Position numbers and translations under genes: made by a program. 21,740 nucleotides of DNA from positions 1 through 21,740 of the IMG/VR virus record IMGVR_UViG_3300042301_001125; one strand, given 5' to 3'. Every line of letters starts with the position of its first letter. Position 1 is the first letter of the stretch. Positions 7,691-21,102 of the stretch are shown here, piece by piece. The DNA comes from a virus. The notes beneath the pieces are model-generated. The model saw only the letters and a program-made list of their open reading frames with translations. It did no database searches and was not told the DNA's origin.

Positions 7691-7700
7691 GACAAGAAAG

Positions 7701-7733
7701 CCCGGTCAGCTTAGCTGGTCGGGTTTTCCTTTT
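7701..7733 (+). terminator. Intrinsic terminator before the capsid gene
   Basis: Ten-base stem CCCGGTCAGC (7701-7710) pairs with GCTGGTCGGG (7714-7723), including two G-U pairs, around a TTA loop, followed by a T-rich run TTTTCCTTTT. It ends the portal-protease unit. Confidence 0.85.
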
Positions 7734-7843: not shown

Positions 7844-8998
7844 ATGTCTTTTGTCAAGGCACAAAAGGAACTTATTGCCAACCTAGTGGAGCAAATCCGC
7901 GAGGTAACTGACTACGCAGATTCTGAGAAGCGTGGTCTATTGGGCGAGGAAGTTTCAAAAATCAACCGTATTGAGGATGAAATCCGCTCTGCTGAGGCTG
8001 CTGTCCAGACCGCAGAACGCGCAGAAGCTCGCCTCAACGCTGCAGCCGATGCTGCTCGCGACTACAAGCCATCTGTAGAGTCACGCTCTGATGCAGACAT
8101 CCTACGCTCAATTGCGCGTGGTGAAGTTCGCGGTCACGAGTTTGAGAAGCGTCTGCTTGTACCTAGCGACAACACTGTTCCAAAGTCTTTCTATGATGAG
8201 GTATTCTCTGTTGCTCGCCTAGTCGGTCCGATGCTGGATGTATCTCAGGTTATCTCGACCAGCACTGGCGAGTCCCTGACCATCCCAACTCTAACCGCAT
8301 ACAGCACTGCAACCATCAAGGGTGCTGGAACTGCTATCGCTGAGTCTGACCCTGTATTCAGCTCAATCACTTTGGGTGCTTACAAGTACAGCTTCCTTGT
8401 TCCTGTAGCTAATGAGCTACTGAACGATGCTGGCTTTGACATCTCTAGCTTGATTGCTGAGCAGGCAGGTAACGCAATTGGTTACGCTGTCAACGCTGCA
8501 CTAACTACTGGTACTGGAACTGTTCAGCCAACCGGTGTTGTAACCGCAGCTGGTTCGGGTGTAACCGGTGGTACTGGCGTTGCTGGTGCGTTCACCGCAG
8601 ACAACCTAATTGACCTTGCATACTCCCTAGATGGAGCAGCTCGCAGACTACCGGGCGTTGGCTACATGGCTAACACTCAGTCTGTCGGTGCTATGCGCAA
8701 GCTCAAGGATGGAGCTGGCAACTACCTGTACCAGGTCGGTGTAGGTCAGCCTGACTCATTCGCTGGATTCCCAATCTTTGAGAACCCTGCAATGGCAGCT
8801 ACCGCGACCTCTGCTAAGTCGGTTGTTTTCGGACACCTTCCAAGCTACAAGGTCCGTATGGCCGGTGGACTACAGATTGCACAGTCTTCTGACTACGCAT
8901 TCAACACCGATGTCACCACCTTCCGCGTGCTAATGCGCGTGGATGGAAACCTGACCCACGCCGGTCACATCAAGTACTTTGCCGGAGCTGCATCTTAG
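7844..8998 (+). CDS. Major capsid protein, HK97 fold
   Basis: 384 residues. Residues about 1-100 are a charged, Ala/Glu-rich coiled coil (repeated EIR, AEAR and similar), matching the HK97 delta (scaffold) domain removed by the prohead protease. The mature part probably begins near 100-110, before LVPSDNTVPKSFYDEVF, a motif typical of HK97 capsids. It continues with VSQVISTSTGESLTIPTL (E-loop region), a KYSFLVPVANELLNDAGFD spine helix region, IGYAVNAALTTGTGTVQPTGV, and the C-terminal PSYKVRMAGGLQIAQSSDYAF. AGGA lies 7 bases before ATG. Its own promoter and flanking terminators on both sides fit a need for very high expression. The codon use looks cleaner (many GCT/GCA, CGC, ACC codons) than in its neighbours, consistent with this. 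Confidence 0.95.
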   Translation: MSFVKAQKELIANLVEQIREVTDYADSEKRGLLGEEVSKINRIEDEIRSAEAAVQTAERAEARLNAAADAARDYKPSVESRSDADILRSIARGEVRGHEFEKRLLVPSDNTVPKSFYDEVFSVARLVGPMLDVSQVISTSTGESLTIPTLTAYSTATIKGAGTAIAESDPVFSSITLGAYKYSFLVPVANELLNDAGFDISSLIAEQAGNAIGYAVNAALTTGTGTVQPTGVVTAAGSGVTGGTGVAGAFTADNLIDLAYSLDGAARRLPGVGYMANTQSVGAMRKLKDGAGNYLYQVGVGQPDSFAGFPIFENPAMAATATSAKSVVFGHLPSYKVRMAGGLQIAQSSDYAFNTDVTTFRVLMRVDGNLTHAGHIKYFAGAAS

Positions 8999-9015
8999 TT
9001 CAGGCATACTAAGCG

Positions 9016-9055
9016 AAACACCCCCGGTTGTAGGTTGCCGGGGGTGTTTCTTTTT
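9016..9055 (+). terminator. Strong intrinsic terminator after the capsid gene
   Basis: A perfect 12-base stem: AAACACCCCCGG (9016-9027) pairs with CCGGGGGTGTTT (9038-9049) around a 10-base loop, followed by CTTTTT. This is the strongest hairpin in the window and isolates capsid transcription from the sugar cassette. Confidence 0.93.
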
Positions 9056-9058
9056 GAC

Positions 9059-9074
9059 TAAGCTAACTGCTATG
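9059..9074 (+). promoter_or_regulatory. Possible leaderless promoter of the GT4 gene
   Basis: TAAGCT (9059-9064) fits TANNNT and is 7 bases before ATG 9072, with no Shine-Dalgarno upstream. It directly follows the terminator, so a new start of transcription is needed here. No convincing -35 box. Confidence 0.45.
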
Positions 9075-10262
9075 AAACCTACAAAAAAACTAAATGCCGC
9101 ATTCTCTATCTGGTCGAATTCATATGGCACATCTACCGGCTATGGAGTCCAAGTCACTCACCTAGTTGACAGGCTCAAGCGAGATGGCGCAGAGGTCGCT
9201 GTTCTCTCTAACTATGGGCTTGAGGGAAGAATGGATGAAATCCAAACCCCATATGGCAAGGTAGCTCATTACCCGCGAGGGTTTGACACTTACTCTAATG
9301 ATGTCGGTCCGGTTGACCATAGCATCTTTACCGGAAAGCACCCGGACAAGAAATCTGCCCTGATTACTCTCTATGATGTCTGGGTTCTAACAAACAAGCT
9401 GTATGACGACATTGAGCGCATCGCCAGCTGGGTACCCCTAGACCACATTACAATGCCGCCAAAGGTCAAGCAGTGGCTTGTGAAGCCTAATGTGACACCT
9501 ATCGCTATGGCACTTCACGGAGTCCGGCAAATGGAAGAACAGGGAATTGAGTGCGAGTATGTGCCTCACGCGGTTGACACTAAGGTTTACAAGCCAACTC
9601 ACCAAATCCCTACAGGCGAATCTGTAGCTAATTACTTCAATAGCCAAGATAAGTTTGTTGTTGGAATGGTCGCGGCTAACAAAGCATCAGGGCTAGTTCA
9701 CCGAAAAGCTTTCAGCGAGAACCTTTTGGCATACTCTATCTTCAAGAAGAAACACCCGGATGCTCTGCTGTACTTACACACAGAACCGCTAGGGCTTGCT
9801 GCCGGCTGGAACTTGTTACAACTAATCGAAGCTGTCGGGCTAGGCAAAGATGATGTCATCTTTCCGCATCCGCTTGAGTATCGCTTTGGATTAGAGCCGG
9901 CTCATATGGCAGCGGTTTATACCGGGATGGATGTGCTACTTGCGCCAAGCTTAGGCGAGGGCTTTGGTGTGCCAACTATTGAGGCTCAGGCGTGTGGCAC
10001 AAGGGTTATCGTGTCTAACTGGGCAGCTAGTCCGGACCTAGTAGGTGACGGCTGGACAGTCGAGGGGCAGCCTCAGTTCGATGCCGGTCAAAATGCTTGG
10101 TGGAAAATACCAAGTGTGCCATCTATTGTTGAGGCTTTGGAACAAGCTTATGCTGCAGGAAAAGGCAGAAGCACAAAAGCTGTCGAATTTGCTAAGCAGT
10201 TTGATGTCGAAAAGGTCTGGAAAGATAATTGGCTGCCTGTGCTTGATAGGCTGACCAAATGA
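9072..10262 (+). CDS. GT4-family glycosyltransferase
   Basis: 396 residues from ATG 9072 (MKPTKKLNAAFSIWSNSYG). GT-B fold retaining glycosyltransferase. The N-terminal half has a Gly-rich STGYGVQVTHLVDRL acceptor-side motif near residue 20 and ITLYDVW; the C-terminal half carries FVVGMVAANKASGLVHRKAF and the E-x7-E motif GEGFGVPTIEAQACG with E296 and E304, which binds the nucleotide-sugar. An in-frame extension upstream to 8979 would run through the terminator hairpin and is rejected. The stop overlaps the GT2 start as ATGA. With the next two genes it forms a sugar cassette placed between capsid and connector genes. Likely acceptors are a virion protein or a host surface/cell-wall sugar; DNA is also possible. 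The sequence does not say which. Confidence 0.88.
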   Translation: MKPTKKLNAAFSIWSNSYGTSTGYGVQVTHLVDRLKRDGAEVAVLSNYGLEGRMDEIQTPYGKVAHYPRGFDTYSNDVGPVDHSIFTGKHPDKKSALITLYDVWVLTNKLYDDIERIASWVPLDHITMPPKVKQWLVKPNVTPIAMALHGVRQMEEQGIECEYVPHAVDTKVYKPTHQIPTGESVANYFNSQDKFVVGMVAANKASGLVHRKAFSENLLAYSIFKKKHPDALLYLHTEPLGLAAGWNLLQLIEAVGLGKDDVIFPHPLEYRFGLEPAHMAAVYTGMDVLLAPSLGEGFGVPTIEAQACGTRVIVSNWAASPDLVGDGWTVEGQPQFDAGQNAWWKIPSVPSIVEALEQAYAAGKGRSTKAVEFAKQFDVEKVWKDNWLPVLDRLTK

Positions 10263-10903
10263 AACTAATCGTGCCGGTTCTAAACCGCTATGACCTACTG
10301 CAACGGATGATTGATTCAATTGACTTTCCGATTGAGCATCTACTAATTATTGACAATGGCGGTCAGCTAGATGCCCTAAAGGGTAATGAGTTTATTGATG
10401 CTGTAACAGTTCTTGATATGCCAACCAATCTAGGCGTGGCTGCATCTTGGAACTTAGGCATCAAGGCATTCGGTATGGATGAGGTCTGGCACTTTAGTTC
10501 TGCTGACACTGTTTATGGACCGGGTGCGCTTGAAAAACTTAGTGAGGCTAAGTCAGATGAAATTACTTTGACTAAAGCCTTTCCGCATTGGCAGACCTTT
10601 GCTATTGGCACTCACATAATCCAGCAGATTGGATTGTTTGATGAAAGCTTTTACCCAATCTATTTTGAGGACACCGATTTTATGCGTAGAGCGGTCAATG
10701 CTCTGCTACCGATTCAATACCTTGACATAAATGTAAGTCACGACAATAGCTCAACTATCAATAGTGACTCAAGACTTAGGGACAGAAACAGCGTTACATT
10801 CCAAAGCAACGCTATCTATTTTGAAACTAAGGCTGCTTGCGATGACTATTCTGCTGGCAGCTGGAATCCGCAAAGGCGCAGGGAGAACAATTGGGCAAGG
10901 TAG
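10259..10903 (+). CDS. GT2-family (GT-A fold) glycosyltransferase
   Basis: 214 residues, short for the family but complete in its catalytic core. Features: an N-terminal LIVPVLNRYDLLQRMIDSI strand-helix, a LLIIDNGG motif, MPTNLGVAASWNLGI (typical NxGvaaAwNxGi of GT2 enzymes), the SSADTVYGPGALEKL metal-site region and the late YFEDTDFMRRA motif. The C-terminus is basic (NPQRRRENNW). It should use a nucleotide-activated sugar and act in the cytoplasm. The start ATG overlaps the GT4 stop (ATGA), so it is translationally coupled, and its 3' end overlaps the epimerase gene by 13 bases. Acceptor unknown; it differs from the two TAGT proteins at the left edge in motif layout. Confidence 0.82.
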   Translation: MKLIVPVLNRYDLLQRMIDSIDFPIEHLLIIDNGGQLDALKGNEFIDAVTVLDMPTNLGVAASWNLGIKAFGMDEVWHFSSADTVYGPGALEKLSEAKSDEITLTKAFPHWQTFAIGTHIIQQIGLFDESFYPIYFEDTDFMRRAVNALLPIQYLDINVSHDNSSTINSDSRLRDRNSVTFQSNAIYFETKAACDDYSAGSWNPQRRRENNWAR

Positions 10904-11898
10904 TGATTACAGGTGTAGCTGGACTTTTAGGTTCACACCTAGCAGACAGATTCATTGATGAGGGCTGGGATGTAATTGGCATTGACAACCTTATCGGTGG
11001 CGATGCTAGTTATGTACACCCAAAGGTACATCTGTATTTAGATGACCTAACTGATGATGACATTATTCATAAGACTTATTGGCACGAAGCAGACCTTGTG
11101 ATTCACGCCGCAGCCCTAGCTCACGAAGGCTTAAGTGTATTTAGCCCAAGCCTAATCGTGAAAAACAATGTTCAGGCTACTGTAAATGCCGTTACTGCAG
11201 CTGCTAAGAATCAAGTCAAGCGGTTTGTGTATCTATCTTCAATGGCGAGATATGGAAATCTGGGCGTTACTTTTACAGAGGATATGGAGCCAAAGCCACA
11301 AGACCCATACGGCATCGCCAAGCTATCCTCAGAGAAGCTAGTGGCTAACATCTGCGAGGTAAATAATATTGAGTGGACTGTTATTGTTCCGCACAACATT
11401 ATCGGAGCACGACAGAAGTATGATGACCCTTTTCGAAATGTAGCAAGTATCTTTACCAACCGGATGTTGTCTGGCAAGCAACCTATCATTTATGGCGATG
11501 GGACTCAGCAGAGGTCATTCTCATTTGTTCAAGATGTAGTTGAACCTTTGTACCAAGCTTGCTTTATGCCGGAGCTAAACGGCGAGGTTGTAAATGTCGG
11601 ACCGGACAAGGAAAGCACCACCATCCACGAATTAGCTGTAATGATTGCGGGGCTTCTGGACTTTGACCTTGACCCGATTTTTATGGCGGGCAGACCGCAG
11701 GAAGTCAAGAGAGCACTATGCAGTAGCGACAAGGCTCGCAAGCTTTTGGGCTATGAAGCAAAAACCAAAGTAGAGGATGGAATCAAAGAGCTTGTTACTT
11801 GGATTCAAGAACAGGGACCTAAGCCATTCAACTACTACCTGCCACTTGAAATCAACAACGACAAGACCCCACGCAGCTGGTCTGACCGATTGATGTAA
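10891..11898 (+). CDS. NAD-dependent nucleotide-sugar epimerase/dehydratase
   Basis: 335 residues from TTG 10891, chosen because GGGAG at 10881-10885 sits 5 bases upstream and the protein then starts at the usual place just before its Rossmann motif. That motif is G8-VA-G11-LL-G14 in VVITGVAGLLGSH. D32 in IDNLIGGD fits NAD(P) ribose binding, VIHAAALAH is the fourth strand, and the catalytic set is S116/S117 with Y140 and K144 in DPYGIAK. It is an extended short-chain dehydrogenase that modifies an activated sugar (4-epimerase, 4,6-dehydratase or related), feeding the two glycosyltransferases ahead of it. Exact sugar not readable. The next gene starts 10 bases downstream at its own probable promoter. 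Confidence 0.88.
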   Translation: MGKVVITGVAGLLGSHLADRFIDEGWDVIGIDNLIGGDASYVHPKVHLYLDDLTDDDIIHKTYWHEADLVIHAAALAHEGLSVFSPSLIVKNNVQATVNAVTAAAKNQVKRFVYLSSMARYGNLGVTFTEDMEPKPQDPYGIAKLSSEKLVANICEVNNIEWTVIVPHNIIGARQKYDDPFRNVASIFTNRMLSGKQPIIYGDGTQQRSFSFVQDVVEPLYQACFMPELNGEVVNVGPDKESTTIHELAVMIAGLLDFDLDPIFMAGRPQEVKRALCSSDKARKLLGYEAKTKVEDGIKELVTWIQEQGPKPFNYYLPLEINNDKTPRSWSDRLM

Positions 11899-11910
11899 AC
11901 TACAGCTATG
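11896..11910 (+). promoter_or_regulatory. Possible leaderless promoter of the connector gene
   Basis: TAAACT (11896-11901) lies 6 bases before ATG 11908, overlapping the epimerase stop codon. No Shine-Dalgarno is visible before this ATG. Same geometry as at 13796 and 20659. Confidence 0.45.
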
Positions 11911-12504
11911 GCTATTACAAATGGATACACCACTCTTGCTGTCCTGAAGTCTGCGATGAGAATCCCGACAGCGGACACTTTAGATGACGCACTTCTGGAA
12001 AATGCAATTGAGTCAGCATCGCGACAGATTGACGGACACTGTGAACGCGTGTTCTACAACGGCACAGCCACGCGAGTCTATGCCCCTAATGACAACTATG
12101 TAACCGAAACTGATGACATAGTTAGCATTACTAACTTTATGACTAGCAGTGATGGTTCTGGGTTCGATACAACTTGGACCGCTACTGACTATCAGCTAGA
12201 GCCTCTGAATGGCATCGCCGGCGGAATAGCTACACCGGCAACTCAGGTAAGAGCTGTAGGCAACTTTGTCTTTCCGGTAATCGGTAAAGAGGCAACTGTT
12301 CAGATTACTGGAACATTTGGCTGGTCTGCTGTACCTAGTGCTATCAAGCAAGCAACCCTGATTCTTTCTCAGAGGCAGTTCAAGCGTTATGACAGCCCTT
12401 TGGGTGTAGCCGGCTTTGGTGACTTAGGTGCGGTCCGAGTAAGTCGAATTGACCCGGATGTGGCTAGCCTGATTGCTCCATACCGCAGACTGCGAGTTGG
12501 ATAG
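11908..12504 (+). CDS. Head-tail connector (adaptor) protein
   Basis: 198 residues. The N-terminal helices (LAVLKSAMRIPTADTLDDALLENAIESASRQIDGHC) match the helical bundle of gp6/gp15-type head-tail adaptors that sit under the portal. The middle is a beta-rich insertion (TATRVYAPNDNYVTETDDIVSIT, then VQITGTFGWSAVPSAIKQATLILSQRQFKRYDSP), also typical of actinophage adaptors. Position after capsid (interrupted by the sugar cassette) and before the tail terminator fits. The stop TAG overlaps the following GTG start (TAGTG). Confidence 0.8.
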   Translation: MAITNGYTTLAVLKSAMRIPTADTLDDALLENAIESASRQIDGHCERVFYNGTATRVYAPNDNYVTETDDIVSITNFMTSSDGSGFDTTWTATDYQLEPLNGIAGGIATPATQVRAVGNFVFPVIGKEATVQITGTFGWSAVPSAIKQATLILSQRQFKRYDSPLGVAGFGDLGAVRVSRIDPDVASLIAPYRRLRVG

Positions 12505-20443: not shown

Positions 20444-20654
20444 GGATGAGCAGATTCCAACTTGGGCTATTGAGCTAATCAAACAAGTTGAGCGACTGAA
20501 TGAAAAAATACCAACCCACATTGATTGGGTTGAGCGCAACTTGAAAGACCACGAATTGCGCATCAGAAGTCTTGAGCGCAAGCTTTGGGTTATCGCCGGG
20601 GCTTCTGCTGTTGTCGGTGCTATGGTAACTGCCCTAATCAACCTGTTTGGCTAA
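20442..20654 (+). CDS. XhlA-like small membrane protein (probable holin partner)
   Basis: 70 residues from GTG 20442 (an in-frame stop at 20436-20438 excludes any earlier start). Residues about 10-48 form an amphipathic coiled coil (ELIKQVERLNEKIP, then DHELRIRSLERKL), followed by one C-terminal membrane segment (WVIAGASAVVGAMVTALINLF, 49-69). This coiled-coil-plus-TM layout is that of XhlA/hemolysin-type phage proteins, which sit beside holins and endolysins. The ribosome site is weak (AAGAG, with the start partly in a hairpin), which would suit low-level expression. Immediately downstream is the M23 endolysin, supporting a lysis role. A spanin or minor tail protein is less likely. Confidence 0.65.
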   Translation: MDEQIPTWAIELIKQVERLNEKIPTHIDWVERNLKDHELRIRSLERKLWVIAGASAVVGAMVTALINLFG

Positions 20655-20658
20655 GCGT

Positions 20659-20673
20659 TACAATACTTATATG
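20659..20673 (+). promoter_or_regulatory. Probable leaderless promoter of the endolysin gene
   Basis: TACAAT (20659-20664), 6 bases (ACTTAT), then ATG 20671. No Shine-Dalgarno. Same -10 sequence and same spacing as at 13796. Confidence 0.6.
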
Positions 20674-21102
20674 CGATTTCCATTTGAACCTAAATTCATT
20701 ACCGGCAGATTTGGCACTCTGTCGGAGTTTCGCCGCAAAAACAATATGCAGCCACATTCCGGAGCTGACTGGGCTAGACCAGAGGGGACCTCAATTCCAG
20801 CTATCGCCAAAGGCACTATCGTGCTACAGCAATTCTCTGAGGTGCTTGGTAATGTTTCGGTGCAGCGAGTTATGGATAAGGCTGGCGAAATTTGGTATGT
20901 CGGCTACTGCCATCTAAAGGCTTTGGGATTGCCGGTTGGCACTAAGGTCGCTGAGGGTAATTCTGTAGGCTTGGTGGGCAACACAGGGTCAGCCAGCAGT
21001 GGTCCTCACCTACACCTGACAGTTAGTAAAGAGCTAAAAGGCGTGTTTGGTCCAACCGCAGTAAAGATTGACCCCATCGAATTCATAAAGGTAAACAAAT
21101 GA
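20671..21102 (+). CDS. Endolysin: single-domain M23 (LytM-type) metallopeptidase
   Basis: 143 residues from ATG 20671. Zinc and catalytic residues of the M23 family are all visible: H29 and D33 in the HSGAD motif, H81 in YCHL, and H113/H115 in the GPHLHL motif, with the family core strand GTSIPAIAKGTIV between. It should cut peptide cross-links or stem peptides of host peptidoglycan at the end of infection. There is no signal peptide and no separate cell-wall-binding domain, so export probably depends on the holin encoded next. An in-frame TTG at 20647 is ignored, as the ATG is the only start that fits the leaderless -10 box. The stop overlaps the holin start (ATGA). Confidence 0.9.
   Translation: MRFPFEPKFITGRFGTLSEFRRKNNMQPHSGADWARPEGTSIPAIAKGTIVLQQFSEVLGNVSVQRVMDKAGEIWYVGYCHLKALGLPVGTKVAEGNSVGLVGNTGSASSGPHLHLTVSKELKGVFGPTAVKIDPIEFIKVNK

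Follow-up and report, generated by a model that had tools for sequence, protein, structure and literature searches.

The window analysed here, the whole 21,740-nucleotide stretch of DNA, is a 21.7-kb contig of an aquatic bacterial virus in which terminase, portal, protease, capsid, adaptor and tail genes follow one another in the usual order. Three intact and tightly coupled genes, all on the + strand, are located between the gene of the HK97-type major capsid protein (7844-8998, + strand; PF05065, 1.6e-57; phrog_10, 2e-66) and that of the head-tail adaptor (11908-12504, + strand; phrog_442, 4e-20), which forms the right border of the slot. The first of the three, the core gene of the slot (9072-10262), encodes a GT-B retaining glycosyltransferase of the GT4 family (Pfam Glyco_trans_1_4, 4e-10; phrog_2170, 3e-36). 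It is followed by a gene for a small GT-A glycosyltransferase, GT2 (10259-10903; Pfam Glycos_transf_2, 1e-6; phrog_29879, 8e-53), and by one for an NAD-dependent nucleotide-sugar epimerase/dehydratase of the extended SDR type (10891-11898; PF01370, 4e-49). GT4 and GT2 share an ATGA (10259-10262) and GT2 and the epimerase overlap by 13 bases (10891-10903), the same gene set and overlaps as had been described in a sequence-only reading of this DNA. A longer version of GT4, starting at a TTG at 8979, was rejected as an artefact, as both alignment and promoter conservation favour the ATG at 9072.

Other features of the window and its relatives are reported here in their own right. Directly upstream of the small terminase gene, an operon at 89-2441 encodes a ParB-like domain fused to a TET-associated glycosyltransferase (TAGT; PF20691) together with a second TAGT-like protein (phrog_842), and is probably a DNA hypermodification operon; at the same place, relative L005 has ParB, a Tet_JBP oxygenase and a gene weakly like phrog_842. 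A second variable slot of the head module, between portal and protease, encodes collagen-repeat proteins in two relatives (L076:3322-4146 and L077:818-1951), the former without and the latter with the sugar cassette. Finally, an M23-family peptidase (20647-21102; PF01551) is probably an endolysin or a tail-associated peptidase.

The three cassette proteins have the features of active, soluble sugar enzymes. GT4 contains the motif GEGFGVPTIE in its C-terminal domain, an E-x7-E signature of which E296 and E304 are invariant in 24 sequences, and its AlphaFold model (pLDDT 92.4) matches GT4-type structures with Z scores of 28-32; both the GT-B fold and the E-x7-E signature of the retaining GT4 family are therefore present. 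In GT2, residues D83, D138 and D140 (D and DxD-type motifs) are invariant, and its model (pLDDT 94.5) finds GT-A matches. Both phage-encoded glycosyltransferases thus have intact active-site motifs, as would be expected of a virion glycosylation system. The translated epimerase carries the SDR motifs GxxGxxG and YxxxK, its closest solved structure being the UDP-glucose 4-epimerase 4zrm (1e-43). These structure searches point to general GT4 and GT2 folds and name neither an acceptor nor a sugar. No strongly hydrophobic, transmembrane-like segment is present in any of the three proteins (maximum 19-residue hydropathy 1.06-1.62), and all three look soluble; their genes are part of the structural module. 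All three genes are under purifying selection, with dN/dS values of 0.04-0.07 between the window and relative L003.

The cassette also has its own transcription signals. Its left border is a predicted intrinsic terminator 3' of the capsid gene (9015-9050, + strand), which folds with -28.9 kcal/mol (z -5.8), was also found in the terminator scan and is as strong as the sequence-only reading had claimed. A stable structure (below -12 kcal/mol) is found 3' of the capsid gene in 64/64 distinct relatives. Immediately behind it, a putative -10 element, TAAGCT (9059-9064, + strand), is positioned as a leaderless promoter of GT4. Its TANNNT pattern recurs 11-14 nt before the ATG in 55/71 GT4 genes of relatives, versus 0/65 capsid genes, 0/27 large terminases and 15/64 adaptors (0-35% at other genes), and the leaderless start proposed earlier for GT4 is thus conserved beyond chance. 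The leaderless start proposed for the adaptor fared less well: a -10-like TAAACT is present in the window (11896-11901, + strand) and also in relatives L003 and L004, but the element occurs in only the 15 adaptors just mentioned. Terminator and promoter-like element appear to form a conserved regulatory block that opens the cassette. Given the conserved structure and a TANNNT at leaderless distance, GT4 is probably expressed from its own leaderless start and not by read-through from the capsid gene. A further hairpin, 5' of the capsid gene (7696-7728, + strand; -21.2 kcal/mol, z -3.3), is absent from the consensus terminator scan; if it is a terminator, the capsid gene would have hairpins on both flanks and may be isolated leftward too. 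The description of the cassette as a self-contained transcription unit of sugar enzymes was therefore borne out on both counts, by families and coupling as well as by its own signals.

We then compared the locus among relatives, of which 80 viral contigs were fetched via the capsid protein and others via GT2 and GT4. Of 100 capsid-bearing relatives with a visible next gene, 92 have GT4 behind the capsid gene and eight are without it, and 67/75 complete slots hold GT4. A search with the GT4 profile only gave 64 viral contigs that extend upstream of GT4; the capsid gene is there in every one, within 700 nt in 63. About eight of these contigs had already been fetched by capsid or GT4. The link to the capsid drawn from one genome is thus far stronger than that genome could show, and the association is with virion genes and not with lysogeny or envelope genes. 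GT4 also diverges in step with its neighbour, its pairwise divergence correlating with that of the capsid at r 0.74, much as for true head genes (protease 0.79, adaptor 0.69), with a looser fit for GT2 (0.46).

The sequence-only reading had taken the cassette for a moron inserted between capsid and adaptor. As in a moron, promoter and terminator signals of its own are present. However, the pattern of a patchy gain against an empty ancestral site is not seen: GT4 presence changes only twice on the capsid tree, and the eight empty sites fall in two places, both nested within GT4-bearing rows. In one of these groups the empty sites look like deletions: their alignment to GT4-bearing sisters begins at the capsid stop, covers the terminator and runs on into what is left of the GT4 -10 region (TTTTTATGTATG), and beyond this scar they align to the region upstream of the adaptor. 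For the second case, L074, alignment of the empty site gave no tie to a deletion. As the root of the capsid tree was not inferred, the preference for loss over gain rests on the nesting and the junction scar. Together, these comparisons indicate that GT4 is ancestral at its capsid-adjacent position in this lineage and not a recent insertion, and the proposed comparison of loci with and without the cassette (92 versus 8) therefore went against insertion, the absences being nested. A conserved, ancestral context unrelated to virions had been named as the observation that would speak against a virion role; the context is indeed conserved and ancestral, yet it is that of the capsid gene. Loss in two events also means that GT4 is not essential.

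Behind GT4, the gene content is much less stable. On the capsid tree (72 slots), the minimum number of presence changes is 2 for GT4, 5 for GT2, 6 for the epimerase and 9 for a cytidylyltransferase-like gene, with at least 25 changes for the whole slot content. Among 133 pooled slots, in which some contigs are counted twice, GT4 is present in 125, GT2 in 101, the cytidylyltransferase-like gene in 55 and the epimerase in 22. Methyltransferases, UDP-glucose-dehydrogenase-like, TOD1-type and (weakly) sialyltransferase-like genes, a second GT4 and extra glycosyltransferases are also found in the slot. Cargo-like exchange is thus seen for the genes behind GT4 and not for GT4 itself. A first transferase that stays constant, with changing genes after it, would be needed for a glycan whose root is fixed and whose tip varies.

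The linkage extends to other phage lineages. The same capsid family followed by GT4 was found in contigs, phage or prophage, from Microbacteriaceae, Pirellulales, Steroidobacteraceae, Chloroflexi and Gemmatimonadaceae bins. A different capsid family (phrog_267/544) is followed by GT4, directly or after one small gene, in Peptococcaceae, Caldisericales, Saccharibacteria and Gammaproteobacteria bins, and the GT4 relatives behind other-family capsids span phage contigs from Firmicutes, Proteobacteria and Saccharibacteria as well as a Microcystis phage; since bins may hold stray phage contigs, these phylum assignments are indicative. In that Microcystis phage, Mae-JY09, the order is capsid, one ORF, GT4, ORF, epimerase, ORF, adaptor, and in cyanophage S-CBS4, GT4, GT2 and a methyltransferase sit between portal and protease. 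When capsid type is mapped onto a tree of 34 GT4 proteins, it shows 4 changes, the minimum possible being 3. Counting against a role in capsid glycosylation, the locus of one full-length GT4 relative (L182) contains no recognised phage gene. GT2 behaves differently: its distant homologues in large aquatic phages (L086-L141), about 45% identical, are away from recognised capsid genes. In one of these (L093:7247-12191) they lie between a RuvC-like resolvase and a terminase-like gene, which rules out GT2 as capsid-bound by itself.

Several known systems bear comparison with the cassette. One is that of Pontimonas phage phiPsal1 (MG835450; GT1 / methyltransferase / GT2), which occupies the same slot with a GT4 52% and a GT2 49% identical to those of the window. 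It shares the terminator type and the leaderless start, and has an opposite-strand methyltransferase in place of the epimerase. The closest working parallel is chlorovirus PBCV-1, whose capsid protein Vp54 is glycosylated in the cytoplasm by the virus's own, mostly soluble transferases, sugar-nucleotide enzymes and a methyltransferase domain (PMC5408694), although that is a eukaryotic giant virus and these are genes of tailed phages. The top Foldseek match of the GT4 model is the chlorovirus NY-2A GT4 3oy2 (E 9e-17, Z 31.4, 17% identity); as MshA, BshA and sucrose-phosphate synthase score equally, reflecting the general GT4 fold, this match is a parallel and not proof of kinship. Virion (capsid) glycosylation in mycobacteriophages Che8 and Rita is mentioned in PMC11256854, which credits it to Freeman et al. 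2023. Like the cassette, these phages combine phage-encoded glycosyltransferases with actinobacterial hosts, and the capsid is the acceptor there and the likely acceptor here; among the five tblastn records there is no mycobacteriophage, and the likeness to the Che8 transferases is one of description. In Maravista, which is related to Che8 and Rita, the transferases are near the 3' end of the genome (PMC11256854), whereas GT4 here is fixed behind the capsid gene and has its own conserved promoter-like element. Adjacency is therefore unnecessary for capsid glycosylation, which counts against our reading. Phage capsid glycosylation is thus already known from Che8 and Rita; a capsid-adjacent GT4 family across phages of many phyla appears to be new, as a literature search, with most subscription journals outside it, turned up no description of transferases next to the capsid gene of tailed phages.

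From these observations we consider it probable that the cassette is a soluble, phage-encoded pathway that builds a glycan with a variable outer part on a virion protein, probably that of the capsid. Conserved gene position is circumstantial evidence for this, and we infer the acceptor, the order of the steps, the sugars and the benefit as follows. The late capsid message would stop at the 9015-9050 terminator, and a separate, leaderless GT4 transcript would begin just behind it. Acting in the host cytoplasm, GT4 would put the first sugar on a virion protein while heads are being assembled or earlier, and the major capsid protein is the likeliest acceptor. GT2 would then lengthen the glycan, and the epimerase would make or cap a variable outer sugar, either by supplying the donor or by modifying the end of the glycan. 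In relatives, the place of the epimerase is taken by a cytidylyltransferase-like protein, methyltransferases, a UDP-sugar dehydrogenase or additional transferases, which would serve the same end. The phage may benefit through the surface properties of its particle, or by escape from factors that bind the particle. Comparing capsid alignment columns between phages with and without the cassette gave a single, weak candidate for a glycosylation site: residue 238 (window 8555-8557, in a glycine-rich stretch) is Ser in 86/92 GT4-bearing rows and Ala in 8/8 empty ones; Ala is also found in five GT4-bearing rows, and with two loss events the difference is not significant.

The same pathway might act chiefly on a tail or neck protein, such as the tail tube, instead of the capsid. 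Neck and tail genes also border the slot, and mycobacteriophage transferases reportedly modify both capsid and tail proteins. We nevertheless regard such an acceptor as unlikely, since GT4 holds its place behind capsid genes of differing families and since its terminator-promoter block is tied to the end of the capsid gene. Remodelling of the host cell surface, by which the cassette would block superinfection or alter receptor glycans, is improbable for a related reason, namely that envelope modification leaves the cross-lineage linkage of GT4 and capsid unexplained. Serotype-conversion cassettes of the gtrABC type consist of a membrane flippase, a bactoprenol glucosyltransferase and a membrane-bound specific transferase. 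Such families are absent from the slot, the cassette is without a membrane glycosyltransferase, flippase or polymerase, and none of its three proteins has a transmembrane-like segment. Furthermore, phiPsal1 is lytic according to PMC6106888. On the other hand, exchange of the outer-sugar genes would suit envelope diversification too, and a host-surface role is known for phage transferases and has been proposed for freshwater actinophages (PMC10202952).

We also considered whether the enzymes glycosylate phage DNA bases jointly with the TAGTs upstream of terminase. The window does encode a ParB-TAGT fusion (89-1573) and a second TAGT-like protein (1560-2441), L005 has ParB and a Tet_JBP oxygenase at that place, and DNA protection has been proposed for actinophage transferases (PMC10202952). 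Yet phiPsal1 has GT4 and GT2 and its complete genome contains no TAGT match, so that the partner expected in DNA hypermodification does not co-occur, and the TAGT operon is a separate unit which leaves the capsid linkage unexplained. That operon is the better candidate for DNA modification, and participation of the cassette is very unlikely. Finally, the cassette could be a passing moron without a virion role, lying behind the capsid gene only because insertions are tolerated there and a terminator is at hand. In its favour, the cassette is a self-contained unit with a promoter-like element, and empty sites exist. However, GT4 is apparently ancestral and under purifying selection, its divergence parallels that of the capsid, and it is found behind capsid genes of other families too, which makes this explanation scarcely tenable.

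Glycosyltransferases of aquatic phages are usually classed as auxiliary genes. Those of actinophages have been proposed to protect DNA or to exclude superinfecting phages (PMC10202952). That one transferase family stays tied to the capsid gene in phages of many phyla points to the particle itself. The lead gene adjoins that of the capsid in almost every relative and also in phages that are not related, which suggests that these viruses sugar-coat their own shells and change the sugars often. More tentatively, as a possibility that falls somewhat short of probable, we propose that a capsid-bound glycosyltransferase family, spanning phages of several bacterial phyla and more than one capsid family, primes capsid glycans of tailed phages, with the swapped genes varying the surface sugars. 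Capsid glycosylation would then be common among environmental tailed phages, gene order would be a simple marker with which to find it, and the swapped third gene would provide natural variants for comparing particle glycans. If true, bacterial viruses would have their own equivalent of serotype switching, played out on the particle.
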